From: a virus
DNA length: 20,862 nucleotides
Virus record (IMG/VR): IMGVR_UViG_3300031578_000415
Coordinates: 1 to 20,862 of that record
Reading direction: 5' to 3' (one strand)
Made by a program: the position numbers and the translations under genes. Every line of letters starts with the position of its first letter. The stretch's first letter is position 1. The notes under the pieces were generated by a model. The model was not told where the DNA came from. It worked only from the letters and a program-made list of their open reading frames with translations, and did not search any database. Below, piece by piece: positions 1,938 through 18,762 of this stretch.

Positions 1938-2714
1938 TTACTTCTCCCCGAATGCCACAAGGAAGTCCTTCATGTACGGCCATGACTTGATCCACTCGCA
2001 GATCGAACCCTCACATCCTTCACGCCACATCGGGAGTCGATGCTTCCTCCGGCTGCCAAACATTCTGAATCCTACTTCGTAGTTGAGGAGGAACGTCGCC
2101 ATCTGCAGGAACCCCTCGGGGAGCAGGTCTTTCATCGTCACCCGTTCCGCGCGCTTCGCTGCAGCCCCGTCAGCCTCTCGGAACTCGTCCACTGCACGAT
2201 TCAGCTCATCGAGGAACAGCTGCGGCAGCGGGTTCTCGAAGTCGTCCTGAGTGAGATGCCGCTTGCCCAGCATGTTCATCGTACTGCAGCTGTTGCGCAC
2301 CGTGCCGACCTTGTACGTGTCGACCTCCTGCCAGACATAGCGAGGAATGGTGATGTCGCAGCTGACGGTGATGTATCGCATGAACTTGCGATGGTCACCC
2401 CCACGTTTGATCAGCGACAGTGCGAGTTGCAGGTCGTCAGGGCCGATCACTGGCATCTCCCGCACGAGGTACCCAGGCGGGCAGAGGTCACGGTCTCCCG
2501 TGCTAAGGAGGGCTGCAGTGGGCTCTTCATCCTCTGCGCTGATCACCTTGTTGATCGGCCAGTGAGGTTTCTGGACATAGTCGATCATGTCCATGCCGTT
2601 GTAGTCAGAGTGGTGATGGATCCAGCTGTCGCTCTTGTCCCAGCTGTCAAACGGATTGCGCATGCTTCGCAGCGCTGGCTTGAATCCGTAGATATCGGTC
2701 AATTCGATCTTCAT
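1938..2714 (-). CDS. Conserved phage protein, possibly ThyX-like
   Basis: This 258-residue protein looks like a phage-conserved protein type with segments MRNPFDSWDKSDS near the N-terminus, then DHRKFMRYITVSCDIT, PRYVWQEVDTYKVGT and NSCSTMNML (about residues 105-150). The arrangement of a charged helix followed by a W-x-E/Q-x-D-x-Y-K segment loosely resembles the core of flavin-dependent thymidylate synthase (ThyX), which makes dTMP from dUMP. The exact ThyX signature RHRxxS is absent, so this is a hypothesis, not an identification. The context fits nucleotide metabolism: its ATG directly follows the TAA of the dNMP kinase gene, with GGAAGG as ribosome binding site. It could equally be an unrelated DNA-metabolism protein. 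Confidence 0.8.
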   Translation of the reverse strand: MKIELTDIYGFKPALRSMRNPFDSWDKSDSWIHHHSDYNGMDMIDYVQKPHWPINKVISAEDEEPTAALLSTGDRDLCPPGYLVREMPVIGPDDLQLALSLIKRGGDHRKFMRYITVSCDITIPRYVWQEVDTYKVGTVRNSCSTMNMLGKRHLTQDDFENPLPQLFLDELNRAVDEFREADGAAAKRAERVTMKDLLPEGFLQMATFLLNYEVGFRMFGSRRKHRLPMWREGCEGSICEWIKSWPYMKDFLVAFGEK

Positions 2715-3784: not shown

Positions 3785-3990
3785 TCGTTCTCCTTCCTCA
3801 TGCACAGAGGCAGGTCTGGACACGGGGGCCAGAACTCATTCCCCACGCACAGAAAGGTCTTTCGAAAGAGGTTGGGACGACGGTAGAGCAACCGGCAGTA
3901 CGTCCTGACGGCTTCTGCCCAACCACCCTCCTTCCGTGACAAGACCGGCAGGCTACTCTTCGGGCCACTCTTCTTCACGGAGCCTCTCAC
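3664..3990 (-). CDS. Doubtful cysteine-rich small protein between KTSC and RNase H genes
   Basis: The 168 bases between the KTSC stop and the RNase H start are covered by an open frame of up to 108 residues, starting at a GTG inside the KTSC gene. The middle part (RTYCRLLYRRPNLFRKTFLC then FWPPCPDLPLCM) has evenly spaced cysteines and lies exactly in the gap, which is why it is listed. Against it are no ATG, a weak ribosome binding site (GAGAGG before a GTG at 3978), and a Ser/Lys-rich tail overlapping RNase H for about 120 bases. It may instead be untranslated leader for RNase H. Confidence 0.25.
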   Translation of the reverse strand: MRGSVKKSGPKSSLPVLSRKEGGWAEAVRTYCRLLYRRPNLFRKTFLCVGNEFWPPCPDLPLCMRKENECSTSGVTQASSRLTQTELSPGDSSSKPKKRSYTKKPKSR

Positions 3991-4192
3991 ATGCCTGGTG
4001 TCGCACGTTTTGGTGAAAGTACTTTCCGATCGACTCAGCTGAGATCAAGTCCTCGTAGTGTTGGGCCATGCTGGGGTATCGATAGAGGGTGCCGTTCTTG
4101 AACTGTATGATCAGGTAGTCATCACGCGTTCCGATCGCTGTGATGTGCGAAGAGTCTACCTCCTGACACTGATCTGGTTCTAGGTACTCCAT
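3953..4192 (-). CDS. KTSC domain protein
   Basis: The 79-residue protein matches the small KTSC domain, so named because it also occurs at the C-terminus of some lysyl-tRNA synthetases. Visible features are SSHITAIG near residues 14-21, the strand pair YLIIQFKNGTLYRY (26-39), and SAESIGKYFHQNVR (51-64), which parallels the family's A-x-S-x-G-x-(Y/F)-x-N ending. The function of stand-alone KTSC proteins, common in phages, is unknown; RNA or protein binding is a guess. GTAGGAGG lies before the ATG, directly downstream of a strong GC hairpin separating it from the histone-fold gene. An acidic tail (REEEWPEE) ends the protein. Confidence 0.82.
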   Translation of the reverse strand: MEYLEPDQCQEVDSSHITAIGTRDDYLIIQFKNGTLYRYPSMAQHYEDLISAESIGKYFHQNVRHQACERLREEEWPEE

Positions 4193-4206: not shown

Positions 4207-4228
4207 AGGGGCCCCCGAAGGGGCCCCT
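4207..4228 (-). promoter_or_regulatory. Perfect 9-bp GC hairpin with UUCG tetraloop
   Basis: On the minus strand the arms AGGGGCCCC and GGGGCCCCT close a TTCG loop, giving the especially stable C(UUCG)G RNA tetraloop. It lies between the stop of the histone-fold gene and the ribosome binding site of the KTSC gene. No U-run follows, so it is not a textbook intrinsic terminator. It may partly attenuate transcription, stop 3' exonucleases and so stabilise the upstream terminase-histone transcript, or mark an RNA processing point. Its perfect stem makes chance unlikely. Confidence 0.6.
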
Positions 4229-4233
4229 TCAGA

Positions 4234-4431
4234 TCAGATGTCCTGAGCCTTGATGGTCTTTCGTCCGCTCTCCTCGCAACGCTGCGCGGCCCTATCCAAC
4301 AGGCGTGCCACTTCGTCGCTGAGCCTATCGACCGCTTCGGCACCGAAGCGGTAGCCCTTGTCAGCTGCATACTGCTTCACTTTGCTGGCCACTACGTAGG
4401 TCACCTTGTCGCTCATGATCAATTCTCCCAT
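4234..4431 (-). CDS. Bacterial-type short histone-fold protein
   Basis: The product is 65 residues from ATG 4431, or 60 from the in-frame ATG at 4416 (MSDKVTYVV); both have plausible ribosome binding sites (AGGAAAAAG and GGGAG). It has the pattern of short bacterial or archaeal-like histones: VVASKVKQYAADKG as helix 1, a long central helix around residues 31-55 with small residues at dimer positions (LSDEVARLLDRAAQRCEESG), then the RKTIKAQDI ending that matches the loop R-x-T and following D of histone folds. The third helix is truncated, as in the bacterial histones described from Bdellovibrio and Leptospira. By family it should dimerise and bind or bend DNA. It follows the terminase gene by 21 bases, so roles in DNA condensation or packaging are attractive but inferred. 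Confidence 0.8.
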   Translation of the reverse strand: MGELIMSDKVTYVVASKVKQYAADKGYRFGAEAVDRLSDEVARLLDRAAQRCEESGRKTIKAQDI

Positions 4432-4452
4432 TCTTTTTCCTGTGTCCGCCGA

Positions 4453-7437
4453 TTATGCAAACGTCATAAGTGGCTGGCGGCGTAGCCGCTCTAACGCGAT
4501 GTTGCAGAAGTTCCACGCATGAACGGTGTGCGGATCCATCCCTAGATTCACCCACTCCATTCTGAACCTACCGACGTCTTCATCTACCACAGTTTTCTGT
4601 CGGATGATCTTGGTCATGTGCAGGTAGAAGTATGTCCGCATCAAAGCCTGGGGCTCGTAACGTCCGCTCTCCAATCCTCGAGCGGTTTGGACCAGGCGGT
4701 CTGGGTGACCCCACTCACAGTTGTGGTTTCCGATCTCAGACAAGGCGAAGTCGATTGACAGGTAGCGATTCAGGATGCAGGTGTATTTGAATTTGATCTT
4801 GGGTCCGCCGCGCCGAGTGGTCAGCTTCTCCTTAGGTCTGTCACCCCACTGAACGATGTCCCTCTGAGTCCCGCGGCTGTCGAGGTACCAGGCCACAAAT
4901 ACGCGCTTGGGGAAGGCCCGTGCGAAGTCCATCGCTTCGTTCGCGTTGGGCATGGCGTCGATGATGCAGAGGTTGACGCGGTAGTCCTTCATGAGCTGGT
5001 AGAGACGTTTGAACGGTGTGATCCTTTGTCCTGCCTCCATGTAGAGAGGATTCATGGAGTCTATGATCTCGTAGTGAATGATCCTCTTTTTAGTCTCAGT
5101 GCGTTCAGCGATCACCACGTAGTTGACACCGCTCATCTGGTCAACACCCATGGCGATCTGGGAGATCTTGCTGTGAGCTGGGCCCCAAACCACTTCAGGA
5201 TTCTCGCTGGCGATCAGGTCCTCAGTCGTAACGGGTACGTTCTCCTCGTCCACGTAGGGCTTGCCCAGCTTGGCGTTGTAGAACTCCTTGATGTTCTGGG
5301 TCGTCTGCCAAGCACGCCACACCTCCGAAGGGGAGATGTACCGGCTCATCATCTGGTGGATGTGGTAGCTCGAGATGTGGGCACCAGGATTGTGCTGCAC
5401 GAAGCGACCATTTTGCGGGTCATTGATCCGGGTCTTGCACCGGGGGCAGCGGTAGTAGATCTCCTCATCAGTGATCGCCACGCAGTCGGGCCAACAGTCC
5501 GACAAGATCACTCCGTCCGGACAGTTGTGGACGAGCAATCCACTATCAGCGAGAACAAAATTCTCATTGTCAGCCACCGAGATGCATCCCACATGAGCCT
5601 GCCCCGCTGGCTCTCGGCTCTTAATGGACACCGTGGACATTGATCCTTCTGAAGACAACTTACCTAACCGAGGCTTATTGAAATGGGACTCAGGGTTGTA
5701 TTGAAGTTCCCAGGCAGGTCTCTTTCCTTCAGACTCTCTGTACGTTACATATAGTGGAGTCCCCAACCGAAGACCGAGGAACACCAGTTGATCCTTTAGC
5801 TCAAAAGATGTAGTGCAGCATGACCACTGCCGACTACTATCATACCCACGACCGTCTTTGTCTCGAATAAACCGATGGCCATCCCCAGCAAGGTAGCCCT
5901 CCATCGCTACGTTAATTTGATCCTTTGATCCCAGCATTACAGCAGAGGGAAATCTCTTGTTCTGGCAGCCCTTATTGCACTCCTCGAACAATCGAATCAA
6001 ATCTGGCCGAGACGTGATGCTGACATCTACCCCAGACTCCACTTCATTCACGGGCAGATTATTCAAACCTGCCCATCTCAACACAGCATCTCGCAGAGGC
6101 TTGCCTTCAATCTGTGCAAAGTTGATCCAGGTATTTGCTTTCCATGATCCCTCAGCAACATATGCACCAATTGCGTACAGCGTCAGGTTATCCCAAGGTG
6201 TTTGACAAGCTGCTGTCTGGCCTTTTTGAAATCCAACATGGGAGCCAGTGTTGGGAATCTCTCGAGCTACAAGAACACTACTAACTCGTTCTTGCTGCTC
6301 AGCTGGCGTGGTTGCAATAGGAATCTCCCCAATCGGTACTGCTTTAGTTCGTGCATGCTTCCGCCCAGCATGCTGAAAGAATGGATGATCTTCCGTGACA
6401 CCAACCTTAGCCCCATTACGAAAAGTAGCCTCAATGATGCTCTTGACACCATTGTCGTGAAATTTGGTGATCGGCTTGTACTGCCAAATCTTATGGTGCA
6501 GGTTCCACGAGAGGGCTTCGTACTGCGTATATGTAGTCCTTAGTTCGTCAAGGCCTACTGCTTCTGGAATCAGTGACCCAATCTTGCGAGCAATGATCTT
6601 CTGGCAAAGAGGAAAGCAGTTGCACTTGGTGTGCCAGTAGTTCTGTGTCCCTTCCAGGAACCGGCGGTGGATGTCCGCGTGGGGGTATCCGGCGGTGGAG
6701 ACGTGCATGATCATCTTGTAGATGGAGTGACTGATGCGCTCGTAGGCCTGATCGATATCCTGCGCCGGAAGTAGCCGGACCTCATCAAAGGCGATGAAGT
6801 CGAACGGTGTGGAGTCCTTCGAAGCTACACCACCCAGATGCCGAAGGTAGAGGGCCGACTCCTTTCCGATCTTCTTATATCCGATCGTGTCGGTGTCCTG
6901 CACAGCCTCGATCAACTGGGCATTAGACTGCACCAGGGGCGTCAGGCGGTCCTTGGAGAGTAGGTTGACGCCGTCCTGGGTTGGGAAGAAGAAACAAGCC
7001 TTGGCGGAGCGGTAGAGGCAGAACCAGAAGATCTTCAACAGGACGAAGATGGTGGCCCCCATCTGGGCCGACTTCATCAGCACGAACTCCTGAGCCCGAT
7101 CCAAATACATAGGGATCAAGTATTTGTGGGAATCGATGTCGAACGGTTTGTGGTCTACTTTGATCCCCGACGTACATGCCCACAACAGGAAGTTGTGTCT
7201 CTTCAGAGCTTCCAGGTCTTCCGGGCTGATGCTAGCTGGAGACAGGGAAGACAAGTCTGCTTCCTCGAATTTGCCTCCAGGAGGAGCCAGGCCATCGAAG
7301 ATGTCCTGAACGGGTGTAACCACCCTTTCGACCTTCACGGCTGTTCGGGTCGATTTGACCTTCACAGCAGTTCGAGTAGGCGGTGGTGTTTTCCCAGGCC
7401 TATTCGGAGGGGGAGTCTTTTTTGGTGCGGTTGCCAT
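4453..7437 (-). CDS. Large terminase subunit (GpA type) interrupted by an intein
   Basis: The 994-residue precursor is the packaging motor and nuclease that translocates phage DNA into the prohead. After a basic Lys/Pro tail it shows a deviant Walker A, KSAQMGAT (residues 122-129), like lambda gpA (lysine at the start rather than before T), and Walker B FIAFDE (D218/E219). A zinc-ribbon-like segment and a C-terminal RNase H-like nuclease follow, with GVDQM (D766) and CIIDAM (D827). Residues 274-638 are an intein, so the spliced product would be about 629 residues, normal for GpA terminases. ATG 7437 is preferred to GTG 7443 because AAGGTGACC directly precedes it. The ribosome binding site lies inside the NYN gene, which overlaps by 38 bases. 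No small terminase or portal gene is adjacent, which is unusual. Confidence 0.93.
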   Translation of the reverse strand: MATAPKKTPPPNRPGKTPPPTRTAVKVKSTRTAVKVERVVTPVQDIFDGLAPPGGKFEEADLSSLSPASISPEDLEALKRHNFLLWACTSGIKVDHKPFDIDSHKYLIPMYLDRAQEFVLMKSAQMGATIFVLLKIFWFCLYRSAKACFFFPTQDGVNLLSKDRLTPLVQSNAQLIEAVQDTDTIGYKKIGKESALYLRHLGGVASKDSTPFDFIAFDEVRLLPAQDIDQAYERISHSIYKMIMHVSTAGYPHADIHRRFLEGTQNYWHTKCNCFPLCQKIIARKIGSLIPEAVGLDELRTTYTQYEALSWNLHHKIWQYKPITKFHDNGVKSIIEATFRNGAKVGVTEDHPFFQHAGRKHARTKAVPIGEIPIATTPAEQQERVSSVLVAREIPNTGSHVGFQKGQTAACQTPWDNLTLYAIGAYVAEGSWKANTWINFAQIEGKPLRDAVLRWAGLNNLPVNEVESGVDVSITSRPDLIRLFEECNKGCQNKRFPSAVMLGSKDQINVAMEGYLAGDGHRFIRDKDGRGYDSSRQWSCCTTSFELKDQLVFLGLRLGTPLYVTYRESEGKRPAWELQYNPESHFNKPRLGKLSSEGSMSTVSIKSREPAGQAHVGCISVADNENFVLADSGLLVHNCPDGVILSDCWPDCVAITDEEIYYRCPRCKTRINDPQNGRFVQHNPGAHISSYHIHQMMSRYISPSEVWRAWQTTQNIKEFYNAKLGKPYVDEENVPVTTEDLIASENPEVVWGPAHSKISQIAMGVDQMSGVNYVVIAERTETKKRIIHYEIIDSMNPLYMEAGQRITPFKRLYQLMKDYRVNLCIIDAMPNANEAMDFARAFPKRVFVAWYLDSRGTQRDIVQWGDRPKEKLTTRRGGPKIKFKYTCILNRYLSIDFALSEIGNHNCEWGHPDRLVQTARGLESGRYEPQALMRTYFYLHMTKIIRQKTVVDEDVGRFRMEWVNLGMDPHTVHAWNFCNIALERLRRQPLMTFA
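5524..6618 (-). other. Intein with LAGLIDADG homing endonuclease in terminase
   Basis: Residues 274-638 of the terminase precursor (365 residues) form an in-frame protein intron. The N-terminal junction is N|CFPLCQKIIARKIGS (block A). Block B is GVTEDHPFF, with T348 and H351. Two endonuclease motifs are visible, AIGAYVAEG (about 422-430) and MEGYLAGDG (512-520), with E429 and D519 as candidate catalytic acids. The end reads FVLADSGLLVHN|C, giving the penultimate His637, terminal Asn638 and Cys639 as first residue of the C-extein. All residues needed for class 1 splicing are present, so it should be active. By eye, the segment has lower GC content than the flanking terminase, consistent with acquisition. 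The flanks rejoin as HTKCN-CPDGV. Confidence 0.93.
7324..7377 (-). repeat. Two-copy 27-base tandem repeat in terminase N-tail
   Basis: Two adjacent 9-residue units, TRTAVKVKS and TRTAVKVER, occur at terminase residues 21-38, directly after two KTPPP motifs. At the DNA level both contain GTGAAGGTC and similar flanks, indicating a tandem duplication that has drifted. The tail is basic and probably disordered. Confidence 0.75.
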
Positions 7438-8017
7438 GGTCACCTTGTTTGGTCCTTGTCTCTATGAAGATCTCATTTTTGGATATAAATAGGATCGAAT
7501 CGGCAACCGCGTACAAGAGACTGGACGTTCTTTGTTCCACTGTGACGACTTCGGTCTTCTTGCCTCGATCGTGCAGCTCTCGAAGCAGGAGGGCGTAGTC
7601 TCCGTCTCCGGAGGCCAGCACGAAGGTGTCGTAGTCGTCAGCAGCGTTGATCGCGTCGATGGTGATGCCCACGTCCCAGTCCGTGTGAAACGCCTTCTTC
7701 GTGCCCTTCTCCTCCCTCATCTTTCGGGTTTTGACGTCGTACCCGAGAGCCGCCAGGTAGTAGAGGAATCGAGAGTTGCGAGAGGCGTACTGCTTCACGG
7801 TCTTCCCTGTGTCGTCGACCTTTCGATAGGGAAGAGATATGGCGTAGGCTACAAGCGTCAACCGACGCGGTCTTGTCTCAGTCTGCCTATTTTGGATCAG
7901 GTTCTTGATTGCGCTGTAGTCAACGCGTGCGTCAACCCCAAACACCTCACGGCAAGAGTGCCAGAGGTTGTTCACATCGATCGCTACGTATACGCGTTCT
8001 TCTGAGGTCGGAGTCAT
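7400..8017 (-). CDS. NYN/LabA-like PIN-superfamily nuclease
   Basis: The protein of about 205 residues has the NYN (DUF88/LabA-like) fold. Conserved acidic residues sit in YVAIDVNNLWHS (D14, N16, N17), HTDWDVGITIDAI (D113 and D115) and FVLASGDGDYALLL (D138, D140), the three carboxylate blocks of the PIN/NYN superfamily. Members are metal-dependent ribonucleases, some acting on tRNA or mRNA. A role in degrading or processing host RNA is inference. The start is uncertain: ATG 8017 is given, while TTG 8032 adds five residues; neither has a strong ribosome binding site. Its 3' end overlaps the terminase start and contains that gene's ribosome binding site, so the two are probably translationally coupled. 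Confidence 0.88.
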   Translation of the reverse strand: MTPTSEERVYVAIDVNNLWHSCREVFGVDARVDYSAIKNLIQNRQTETRPRRLTLVAYAISLPYRKVDDTGKTVKQYASRNSRFLYYLAALGYDVKTRKMREEKGTKKAFHTDWDVGITIDAINAADDYDTFVLASGDGDYALLLRELHDRGKKTEVVTVEQRTSSLLYAVADSILFISKNEIFIETRTKQGDHGNRTKKDSPSE

Positions 8018-16183: not shown

Positions 16184-17350
16184 TCACTCCCCGACGTGTC
16201 CGCTCAGCACGTAGCGGTTGGTGACCTCATCGACCAGAGACTGATAATCGGGGTGTGGAACCACCTTCTCCAAGAATCCGACCCATCCCTGGAAGTTGAT
16301 CTCACCACTGTCAGACTTCCATTTCAGCCACGCCTTGCTCTTGGAGATCACTCCCATCTTCACAGCCTGATCGAAGATCATGTAGGTCATATCGAAACCG
16401 CGATTACCGAGACACGGAACTCGGATCGTACGTAGAACGGGTGCCATCTTATTCTTCAAGATGTGTACCTTGTTCCTGTGGCCGACGGTGTCACGCTCGT
16501 CATCCTCTCCCTTTGATGGAGCGGAACCTTCTTTGATCGCCTGACCCTTAGCAAGACGAATACGAAGGGAGCTATAGAACGTCACCTTCTCTCCACCGTA
16601 GCTTGCCCATGGGTCACCATACTGGACGTTGATGTCGCGGTAGAGATGGTTGATAAAGACCAGAGCGATGCGTTCCTTCGAGATCAGATGGATGACTCGC
16701 TGCAGGTTCTTGCCGACGACCTTCGCCGCTTCAGCATAGAAATGTTGATCAGCTGCAGCGTTGAGCTGAGCCTTCGTAGGCGTTCCTCCCAGGGAGTCCC
16801 ATCCGATGAGCACGGGGACGGAGGCATCGAACTGCTTGATCGTAGCGATGAGGAACTCCATCCGCTCGAACACCTCTTCGATGCACTCAGCTTGAGCGAG
16901 CAACAAGTGGTCCAGGTTGACTCCCAGCTTCTCCCAGTAGTCCAGAGCGAGAGCCTGCTCGGTGTCGATCACGCAGGCCACTCCACCTTGCCTCTGGGTG
17001 TCTGCCACAGCGTGCCCCAGCAGAGTGGTTTTGCCCGATCCGTTACGTCCGGCAATCTCGGTCAGACGCCCGAAGGGGATGCCTCCAGGAATCCGGTTCC
17101 CACCAGCGATGGCAGAGTCGATCACGAAATTGCCAGTGGAGGCCCACTGCTCGACCTTGCACAGCACCGTGTCAGCCGTGGGAGTGATCGCAGACCCGGT
17201 CCCGAACTTCTTCTCCATGCCTGCGATGGCATGGTGGACCAGCTTCATTGCCTCTTCGTTGGTACGCGTAGACGTTGGCGCTCTAGTAGAAGATGAGGGG
17301 GCGGATGACTTCTTCGTGGGGATCTTCTTCTTGGGAGGCTGCTTGGGCAT
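16184..17350 (-). CDS. RecA/UvsX-type recombinase
   Basis: The 388-residue protein is a RecA-family strand-exchange ATPase. Walker A GRNGSGKT is at residues 101-108, the catalytic glutamate is E131 in VIDTEQAL, and Walker B is VLIGWDSLGG with D185. The loop region FINHLYRDINVQYGDPW leads to YGGEKVTFYSSLRIRLAKG, the order seen in RecA. The first about 30 residues are a Lys/Pro/Ser/Thr-rich tail not found in bacterial RecA. It is separated from SSB by 98 bases and has a CTGGAGTGCAAG ribosome binding site. It probably works with SSB, SbcCD and polymerase in recombination-dependent replication. It seems intact. Confidence 0.94.
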   Translation of the reverse strand: MPKQPPKKKIPTKKSSAPSSSTRAPTSTRTNEEAMKLVHHAIAGMEKKFGTGSAITPTADTVLCKVEQWASTGNFVIDSAIAGGNRIPGGIPFGRLTEIAGRNGSGKTTLLGHAVADTQRQGGVACVIDTEQALALDYWEKLGVNLDHLLLAQAECIEEVFERMEFLIATIKQFDASVPVLIGWDSLGGTPTKAQLNAAADQHFYAEAAKVVGKNLQRVIHLISKERIALVFINHLYRDINVQYGDPWASYGGEKVTFYSSLRIRLAKGQAIKEGSAPSKGEDDERDTVGHRNKVHILKNKMAPVLRTIRVPCLGNRGFDMTYMIFDQAVKMGVISKSKAWLKWKSDSGEINFQGWVGFLEKVVPHPDYQSLVDEVTNRYVLSGHVGE

Positions 17351-17448
17351 CTTGCACTCCAGGGAAAGGTGGACGGGAACACCTCCTGCCGGATTGGCAA
17401 TAGATGCTCCCGTCCTAGGGGAAGCTAAGCTGTCGTCCGCCAGTGCTA
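17351..17448 (-). other. 98-base intergenic gap before RecA
   Basis: Among the longest gaps between confidently called genes in the minus-strand block. It carries a GGCAGGAGGTG sequence and a CTGGAGTGCAAG ribosome binding site for RecA. I find no convincing promoter or U-tailed terminator; it may hold a promoter with phage-specific elements that I cannot recognise. Confidence 0.4.
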
Positions 17449-18762
17449 CTACTTGCGCTTACCGGTCGCCTGCTCCATCTCCTCCATCAGAGAATCGGCA
17501 GCCGACTTTCCGCCAGCCTTGCCCCCCGGTTTGGGCTTCCCAGGAGCCTTCCCAGGCCCCTTCTTCCCCGGAGCCTTCTTCGCCTTGGCAGCGTCGAGGG
17601 CGGCGATACGCTTGCCACAGCGAGCGTACAGAGGGCACTCCTTGCAGGTGTCGTCGTCCCCGTCGTACTGACGGGCCGTACCGAAGCACCCGATGTGGAC
17701 GGAGGTGCCATGGGCGTCCTGGACCGCCACGTTGGTGGGGTCCTCGATTTGCTCATCCGCGAGCTGATCGAAGTCCAGGTAGCCCTCATCGTCCACGGGA
17801 GGCCACGCCTCGGCCTGTACTCCGTTTCCTCCGTTCTCCTCCTCCTCCGGAGTCTCTTCCTCCTCCTCCTCCGGAGTCTCTTCCTCCTCCTCCGGAGTCT
17901 CTTCCTCCTCCTCCTCGGGCTCCTCCTCCTTTGCCTTCGCCTTCGGAGCCAGCTTCTTCGTCGGCTTCTTCTTCGTCGACGACTTGGCCTTAGCTTCCTC
18001 CAGCTTCTTGGCCTCCTCGGGATCGACGCCCTCCATGATGGCGATGATCTCGGCCGCCGACTTCACCTGCTGGACCATGTCCAGGTTGTGGAGCGTGGGA
18101 TCGTCATCCGGCACCGGAGCTTCCGAAGTGTTCTTCTCCAGACGCACGCGGTACTTGGTGTTGAGGTCCTTGCCCTCCTTGGTGATGATGACGTTGTACC
18201 CCTCTTCGAGGTCCGTCATGTCGATCTCATCGTTGTAGTAGTCCAGCAGCTCCTTGAAGATCATGCTGCCGAACCCGAACACCTGGATCTTCGGGGCGCC
18301 CACATCGGGGAGACGGTTCTCCTCCACGCCCCCGCCGATCATCTCGTCGACGTTCTCCTGGGTCCACTCGGGGTCTTCCAGGTCGATGGCGTTGACGAAG
18401 AGGCGCATGCGAGCACGCATCGACTTGGCCAGCTCGAGGTCTGCCGGATCGCCCGTGGCACGGAGACGCTCCACCTCATCACAGACGGGGCACTCACCTC
18501 CACCCGGCGGTGTCTTCTTTGGGCAAGCGAGCGTCTTCTTGTTGTCGTCATCAGGACCGATGCCCCAGTGGGTCCAGACTTCACGCCACCACTGGAAGGC
18601 GTTGACGCCTTCGTCGGTCCAGGGGGGCATGACCCTGACGCGGTTCTTGCCACTCTTCAGCTTGAGGAACGGCATGGGGCCGAAGTTCCCCATCGCTGCT
18701 GCTCGGGCAGCTTCCTCCGCTGCCTTTTGTTTGGATTTGCCGATGTCCGCTTTGATTGCCAT
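17449..18762 (-). CDS. T4 gp32-like single-stranded DNA-binding protein, extended
   Basis: The 437-residue protein matches gp32-type SSBs in its N-terminal half: a basic start, FLKLKSGKNRVRVMPPW, and a zinc site with H65, C80, C91 and C94 (spacing close to that of T4 gp32), followed by RLFVNAIDLEDPE. It binds and protects single-stranded DNA and recruits partners. Beyond about residue 245 it differs: a basic linker, a Glu-rich repeat (281-309), a second cysteine set C359, C373, C376 and C382 (CFG then CKECPLYARC), a Lys/Gly/Pro tail, and an acidic SLMEEMEQ near the end. The start has AAGGAGATCAAAG upstream. It is longer than T4 gp32 (301 residues). The second cluster might bind zinc or Fe-S. 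Confidence 0.85.
   Translation of the reverse strand: MAIKADIGKSKQKAAEEAARAAAMGNFGPMPFLKLKSGKNRVRVMPPWTDEGVNAFQWWREVWTHWGIGPDDDNKKTLACPKKTPPGGGECPVCDEVERLRATGDPADLELAKSMRARMRLFVNAIDLEDPEWTQENVDEMIGGGVEENRLPDVGAPKIQVFGFGSMIFKELLDYYNDEIDMTDLEEGYNVIITKEGKDLNTKYRVRLEKNTSEAPVPDDDPTLHNLDMVQQVKSAAEIIAIMEGVDPEEAKKLEEAKAKSSTKKKPTKKLAPKAKAKEEEPEEEEEETPEEEEETPEEEEEETPEEEENGGNGVQAEAWPPVDDEGYLDFDQLADEQIEDPTNVAVQDAHGTSVHIGCFGTARQYDGDDDTCKECPLYARCGKRIAALDAAKAKKAPGKKGPGKAPGKPKPGGKAGGKSAADSLMEEMEQATGKRK
17836..17922 (-). repeat. Acidic ETPEEEE coding repeat in SSB
   Basis: Residues 281-309 of the SSB contain three ETP units at 288, 295 and 303 separated by glutamate runs, that is 7- and 8-residue spacing (21 and 24 bases). 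The DNA shows repeated TCCGGAGTCTCTTCC blocks with TCC runs, prone to slippage. The acidic tract is likely a flexible linker or a DNA mimic of the kind that regulates SSBs. Confidence 0.85.

Follow-up and report, generated by a model that had tools for sequence, protein, structure and literature searches.

A predicted alpha3-truncated histone gene that recurs at shifting positions in an uncultured phage lineage

Histones are DNA-bending proteins with which some bacteria and archaea fold their chromosomes. To our knowledge they were long held to be absent from bacteria and their phages, and the alpha3 histones of bacteria have been characterised from 2023 onward only. The window analysed here, a viral stretch of 20,862 nucleotides (IMG/VR record IMGVR_UViG_3300031578_000415), has a small histone-like gene directly behind the gene for the terminase large subunit, which raises the question whether its product serves the packaging motor or folds DNA, and whose DNA that would be. 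Our answer is that the product is probably a DNA-folding protein of the phage's own and not a component of the packaging motor, because relatives of this phage carry the histone away from the DNA-packaging gene.

The gene lies on the minus strand, to which all genes of the window belong but one, a DnaJ-domain ORF (21-506). Its reading frame (4234-4431) is open for 65 amino acids from an ATG at 4431 with AGGA 6 nt upstream, while an internal ATG at 4416 with GGGAG 8 nt upstream gives a form of 60 amino acids (MSDKVTYVVASKVKQYAADKGYRFGAEAVDRLSDEVARLLDRAAQRCEESGRKTIKAQDI; 4234-4416, start codon at 4416, stop at 4234-4236), identified by phmmer, Pfam, AlphaFold2 and Foldseek. The possible N-terminal extension from the upstream start is the five residues MGELI (4417-4431), and a Shine-Dalgarno-like sequence stands before both starts. 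The sequence-only reading had described a protein of 60-65 residues with a VVxSKVK opening, a long central helix (alpha2) and an RKTIxAxDI end, all of which are present in this ORF. It had also placed the gene 21 bases after the terminase, which agrees with the upstream start (4432-4452); from the internal start the gap is 36 bases. On searching the PDB by phmmer with the 60-residue protein, full-length matches were obtained to Leptospira HLp (E 1.5e-8), Bdellovibrio HBb (9e-5) and Thermococcus HTkC (1.8e-4); the matches to 8qad and 9r1o, which are de novo designed helical proteins, were set aside as low-complexity helix matches. The histone-fold HMM check proposed earlier (CBFD_NFYB_HMF) gave a match to Pfam PF00808, the archaeal/CBF histone family, at E 3.5e-4, with a score at the edge of the cut-off of 21.4 bits (21.2 bits, or 21.7 with the flanking frame), and the match to the NCBIfam archaeal histone model is far below its cut-off. 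Also, an A3 profile of 11 alpha3 histones (the window protein itself and ten others) matched the window protein at 5e-22, self included, and independent homologues on four related phage contigs (G002, G003, G009 and G010) at 1e-11 to 1e-13. A chance match is excluded by the PF00808 and HLp values together with the A3 profile matches in the four relatives. From sequence and structure prediction, therefore, the gene 4234-4431(-) is predicted to encode an alpha3-truncated histone of 60-65 amino acids.

AlphaFold2 with an 11-sequence alignment gave a model of pLDDT 90.3 with helices at residues 10-19, 26-49 and 57-59, and the same elements were predicted without the alignment (pLDDT 82.5). The top Foldseek matches of this model were all histones, in the order HLp (9qt0; TM 0.95, 0.8 A), HBb and HTkC, which are the known members of the alpha3 group, and after them nucleosomal histones; with each of the three alpha3 proteins the window protein aligns end to end. 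A few unnamed phage proteins in BFVD have the same fold. The three-helix fold with a long alpha2 places the protein in the histone fold superfamily (CBFD_NFYB_HMF). It may be noted that alpha3 histones are defined by an alpha3 helix of only 3-4 residues and a shortened alpha2 (PMC11390915); in the window protein the chain ends at I60 with a last helix of 3 residues, and R52, T54 and D59 give it the RxTxxxxD motif of the alpha3 histones that bear one. The histone fold, its alpha3-truncated type and the phage location, all suggested at the outset, are thus borne out by sequence, structure prediction and fold comparison.

For comparison with characterised proteins, HBb residue numbering and DNA contacts were taken from PMC11317129 and HLp numbering from PMC12701072. 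The HBb contacts S9, K10, K12, K52 and T53 correspond to S11, K12, K14, K53 and T54 of the window protein, and the clamp pair R51/D58 to R52/D59, which means that the window protein retains the RxTxxxxD clamp, the KT loop and the first two lysines of alpha1. The other five of the ten HBb contacts differ (T8 to A10, K16 to A18, N22 to R23, S24 to G25 and R57 to Q58), which counts against a DNA-architectural reading; R23 in place of N22 is as in HTkC in the alignment. Among the residues of the HLp tetramer, R49 and R55 correspond to R46 and R52, and N53 to S50. Face-to-face (FtF) histones have the tetramer residues R and N at HMM positions 48 and 52, which are R49 and N53 in HLp (PMC11390915, PMC12701072). 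Bacterial dimer histones were taken as those that cluster with Bd0055, with RKTxxxD and alpha1 lysines at HMM positions 11, 13 and 17 and without R48 and N52; of these traits the window protein keeps RKT and two of the three lysines, the third being A18, and R46 is present. Judged by its residues, it appears to combine parts of the dimeric bending histones and of the FtF tetramer histones. The description as bacterial-type is reasonable in this sense, but the features behind it are common to FtF and bacterial-dimer histones, and a 58-column tree gives the protein no placement.

The closest known system is HLp (Leptospira perolatii, FtF alpha3), which has 40% identity and the same length and shares the truncated alpha3, the RD clamp and the tetramer arginine; unlike HLp, the window protein is phage-encoded, has S50 for the tetramer asparagine and has KT in L2 where HLp has TT. 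HBb (Bd0055, the Bdellovibrio bacterial-dimer alpha3 histone) has the same fold at 39% identity, the SKVK start of alpha1, the GRKT loop, the RD clamp and the five identical contacts, whereas the window protein does not retain the N22, the R57 and the third alpha1 lysine of HBb, R46 has no equivalent in HBb, and a one-residue deletion in loop L1 sets the two apart. Schwab et al. 2024 (PMC11390915) recognise five alpha3 categories, one of them termed 'phage histones', which have a C-terminal helical tetramerisation domain and no RxTxxxD motif. Both these and the window protein are alpha3 histone folds from tailed-phage metagenome contigs, but the latter ends at the histone fold, carries RKTIKAQD and falls outside that category. 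The histones of Marseillevirus and Medusavirus are likewise virus-encoded histone folds, but they are of eukaryotic type, full-length or doublet nucleosomal proteins of giant viruses, and not alpha3. The window protein is a tail-less, motif-bearing alpha3 histone, of the sort otherwise described from bacteria and archaea, and within the open-access literature (subscription papers and preprints lie outside this scope) no description of tail-less motif-bearing histones in tailed phages was found.

The upstream neighbour of the gene is the terminase large subunit (GpA type, 4453-7443, minus strand; phrog_675 6e-81, PF05876, PF14890, PF20454), which is interrupted by an intein at 5524-6522 (minus strand; PF14890 1.6e-5, residues 308-640); the terminase of the L010 contig aligns over 1021 residues, from which this relative seems to have an intein too. 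A KTSC-domain gene follows the histone (3953-4192, minus strand; PF13619 5.5e-10). The UUCG hairpin noticed earlier after the histone gene is real: it is GC-rich and lies between the histone and KTSC genes (4207-4228, minus strand; inverted repeat I9, RNA fold), with a perfect 9-bp stem (4207-4215/4220-4228) and a TTCG loop. As an intrinsic terminator it was rejected, being without a U-tract and absent from the intrinsic terminator listing. Further along, an ORF of 258 amino acids (1938-2714, minus strand) is without any Pfam match; a ThyX-like protein, identified by eye, takes its place in L002/L004, and the ORF is possibly a divergent replacement.

Thirteen IMG/VR contigs with related terminases served as the comparison set, and in the relatives no histone lies beside the terminase. 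Where the terminases are 75-80% identical, the gene order mostly follows terminase-KTSC-RNase H-dNMP kinase, and the slot after the terminase holds KTSC directly (L003/L004), another 65-aa ORF (L005) or an 85-aa cysteine-rich ORF (L002). A packaging-coupled gene as a general rule was rejected on this ground, and the suggestion that adjacency to the terminase points to packaging fails on it and on the histones of the relatives sitting elsewhere. Pfam PF00808 found no histone over the whole contigs of the terminase relatives, a result to be read with the fact that this model alone misses divergent ones; the A3 profile found histones away from the terminase in the four contigs named above, which overturned the idea of a one-off moron gene absent from relatives. 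Three of these are long (G009 77.6 kb, G010 115 kb and G003 109.6 kb), and the relatives with no A3 match are mostly short fragments of 4.5 to 36 kb. G002 and G003, together with L091, have the order gp32-histone-RecA (loci L085/L086/L091). The G002 and G003 contigs are otherwise collinear with the window, G002 sharing with it the order PolA, g18778, gp32, RecA, g14840, SbcD, SbcC, RuvC, NYN, terminase, KTSC, RNase H. In the window, RecA (16184-17350, minus strand; PF00154 7.9e-45) and the gp32-like ssDNA-binding protein (17449-18762, minus strand; PF08804 5.4e-10) are separated by an empty gap of 98 bases (17351-17448), which is the histone site in G002/G003; that the window histone does not adjoin these two genes counts against a DNA-architectural reading. 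In G009 and G010 the KTSC gene lies downstream of the histone, as it does in the window, both genes being in these two contigs well away from the terminase (histone 5947-6117 and KTSC 6422-6604 in L087; histone 5914-6117 and KTSC 7582-7779 in L088).

The histone genes of all four relatives have strong ribosome-binding sites. The G002/G003 protein (L085 6084-6281) has lost the clamp arginine and the KT motif (KMSTIKD), from which the DNA contacts are not uniformly constrained across the family, and it has an acidic C-terminal tail in common with the G010 protein. The G009 and G010 proteins are without an equivalent of R46. In a tree of 17 histones over 58 columns, which does not separate single from repeated acquisition, G003, G009 and G010 form a moderately supported group and the window protein is without placement. 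Since the histones of the four relatives sit at differing sites, the gene is recurrent in the lineage, moving or replaced. The lineage itself is uncultured, as tblastn of INPHARED gave no match and, among named relatives of the terminase, the best has only 33% identity. We conclude that in this uncultured phage lineage, of roughly 110 kb, the histone gene recurs and shifts in position.

PHROGs has no family for the window protein and gave only weak matches to the other phage histones, the best of which (4.8e-4) falls in the lysine-rich tail region of the L052 protein; single-sequence scans of IMG/VR for the histone found no match. DNA pattern scans of IMG/VR, however, found alpha3 histones in other, unrelated viral contigs (L017, L019, L025, L037, L042, L046, L052, L062 and L094), all viral per IMG/VR, with a terminase confirmed only in L019 and, weakly, in L052. 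These histones are often beside ssDNA-binding, RecA or SbcC/SbcD genes: the order is ssDNA-binding protein, histone, RecA in L019 (82 kb), RecA-macro-histone-SbcD in L052 (222 kb) and histone-SbcD in L025, and in L037 the histone is beside nucleotide-metabolism genes. Some of the proteins differ in build. L052 (10467-12645) and L025 (13922-14254) have histones with long lysine-rich, H1-like N-terminal tails that adjoin an SbcD homologue, with the macro-domain gene and RecA on the other side in L052, and the 48-kb viral contig L062 (1778-2131) encodes a protein of 117 aa in which a single chain contains two alpha3 histone folds. In L017 (6144-9007) a histone that resembles HBb and has a C-terminal tail of 30 residues follows a radical-SAM gene and lies between GTP cyclohydrolase I and QueC in a 7-deazaguanine pathway cluster. 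A link to 7-deazaguanine DNA modification (FolE/QueE/QueC in L017, QueD in L019) was considered and rejected as a general feature, QueC being found in only 2 of 8 histone contigs. Nucleosomal archaeal-type histones were also seen in L030, L031, L035, L045, L056, L058, L061, L063, L064, L073 and L074, contigs that are viral by IMG/VR classing; these may be virus genes or flanking host DNA.

What such a protein would do was judged from the fold, the HBb residues that are kept, the recurrence in G002, G003, G009 and G010, and the placement near recombination and replication genes. On these grounds we lean slightly to a phage-owned alpha3 histone dimer that bends or coats the phage's own replicating or recombining DNA. 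Two copies would dimerise through crossed alpha2 helices as a handshake dimer and may grip the DNA backbone non-specifically by K12 and K14 of alpha1, R23 of L1 and the KT motif (K53, T54) of L2, which the R52-D59 clamp would hold in place. Going by residue conservation, the dimer would bend DNA much as Bdellovibrio HBb does, and the target of this nucleoid-associated protein would be the phage genome under replication or recombination during infection. The net charge of only about +2 counts against this reading. The low charge would suit a small regulatory adaptor, for example for RecA, SbcCD or a transcription factor, as would the loss of KT and clamp residues in G002/G003 and the repeated place beside recombination proteins; yet the window protein and most other phage members retain the clamp, the KT motif and the lysines of alpha1, and we regard an adaptor in place of DNA architecture as distinctly unlikely. 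The dimer has also to be set against FtF tetramers wrapping about 60 bp like those of Leptospira HLp, which is the best match in both structure and sequence and whose tetramer residues R49 and R55 have equivalents in R46 and R52 (residues from PMC12701072). With S50 for the conserved asparagine and with G009 and G010 lacking R46, tetramers are rather unlikely.

Two further readings give the histone another target or time of action. A virion or packaging histone, condensing DNA for the packaged genome or travelling with it, would explain the place directly after the terminase, and giant-virus histones are packaged in virions (PMC11390915). The relatives speak against it by their slot without a histone and by histones that lie beside gp32/RecA or ahead of the KTSC gene. 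Bare DNA, moreover, is by general knowledge what tailed-phage motors package, and we take this role to be very improbable. The protein may instead be directed at the host, mimicking an alpha3 histone of the host so as to bind or poison its chromosome or histone dimers and shut down its transcription. Some bacteria, Bdellovibrio and Leptospira among them, rely on alpha3 histones as their main chromatin proteins (PMC10627809, PMC11390915), and cellular HLp, at 40%, is as close to the window protein as the phage relatives are; but nothing ties the lineage to a histone-bearing host, and in several contigs the histone is beside the phage's own recombination genes, so that we hold this to be quite unlikely.

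A phage-owned DNA-bending histone, the reading to which we lean, could be part of a larger scheme in which an uncultured tailed-phage lineage keeps its own chromatin: a minimal alpha3 histone of shifting position that would bend or cover the genome in replication and recombination and might protect it against host nucleases or silencing. As a whole this scheme is tentative and, in our estimate, rather unlikely. That an alpha3 histone with the full motif and no tail recurs in a phage lineage suggests that phages carry and use minimal histones, and the sporadic alpha3 histones of unrelated large phages beside RecA, SbcCD and ssDNA-binding genes suggest the same. At 60 residues the protein is of a size that makes direct expression and testing possible. 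The finding bears on the way in which alpha3 histones passed between archaea and bacteria and on whether tailed phages build chromatin during infection.
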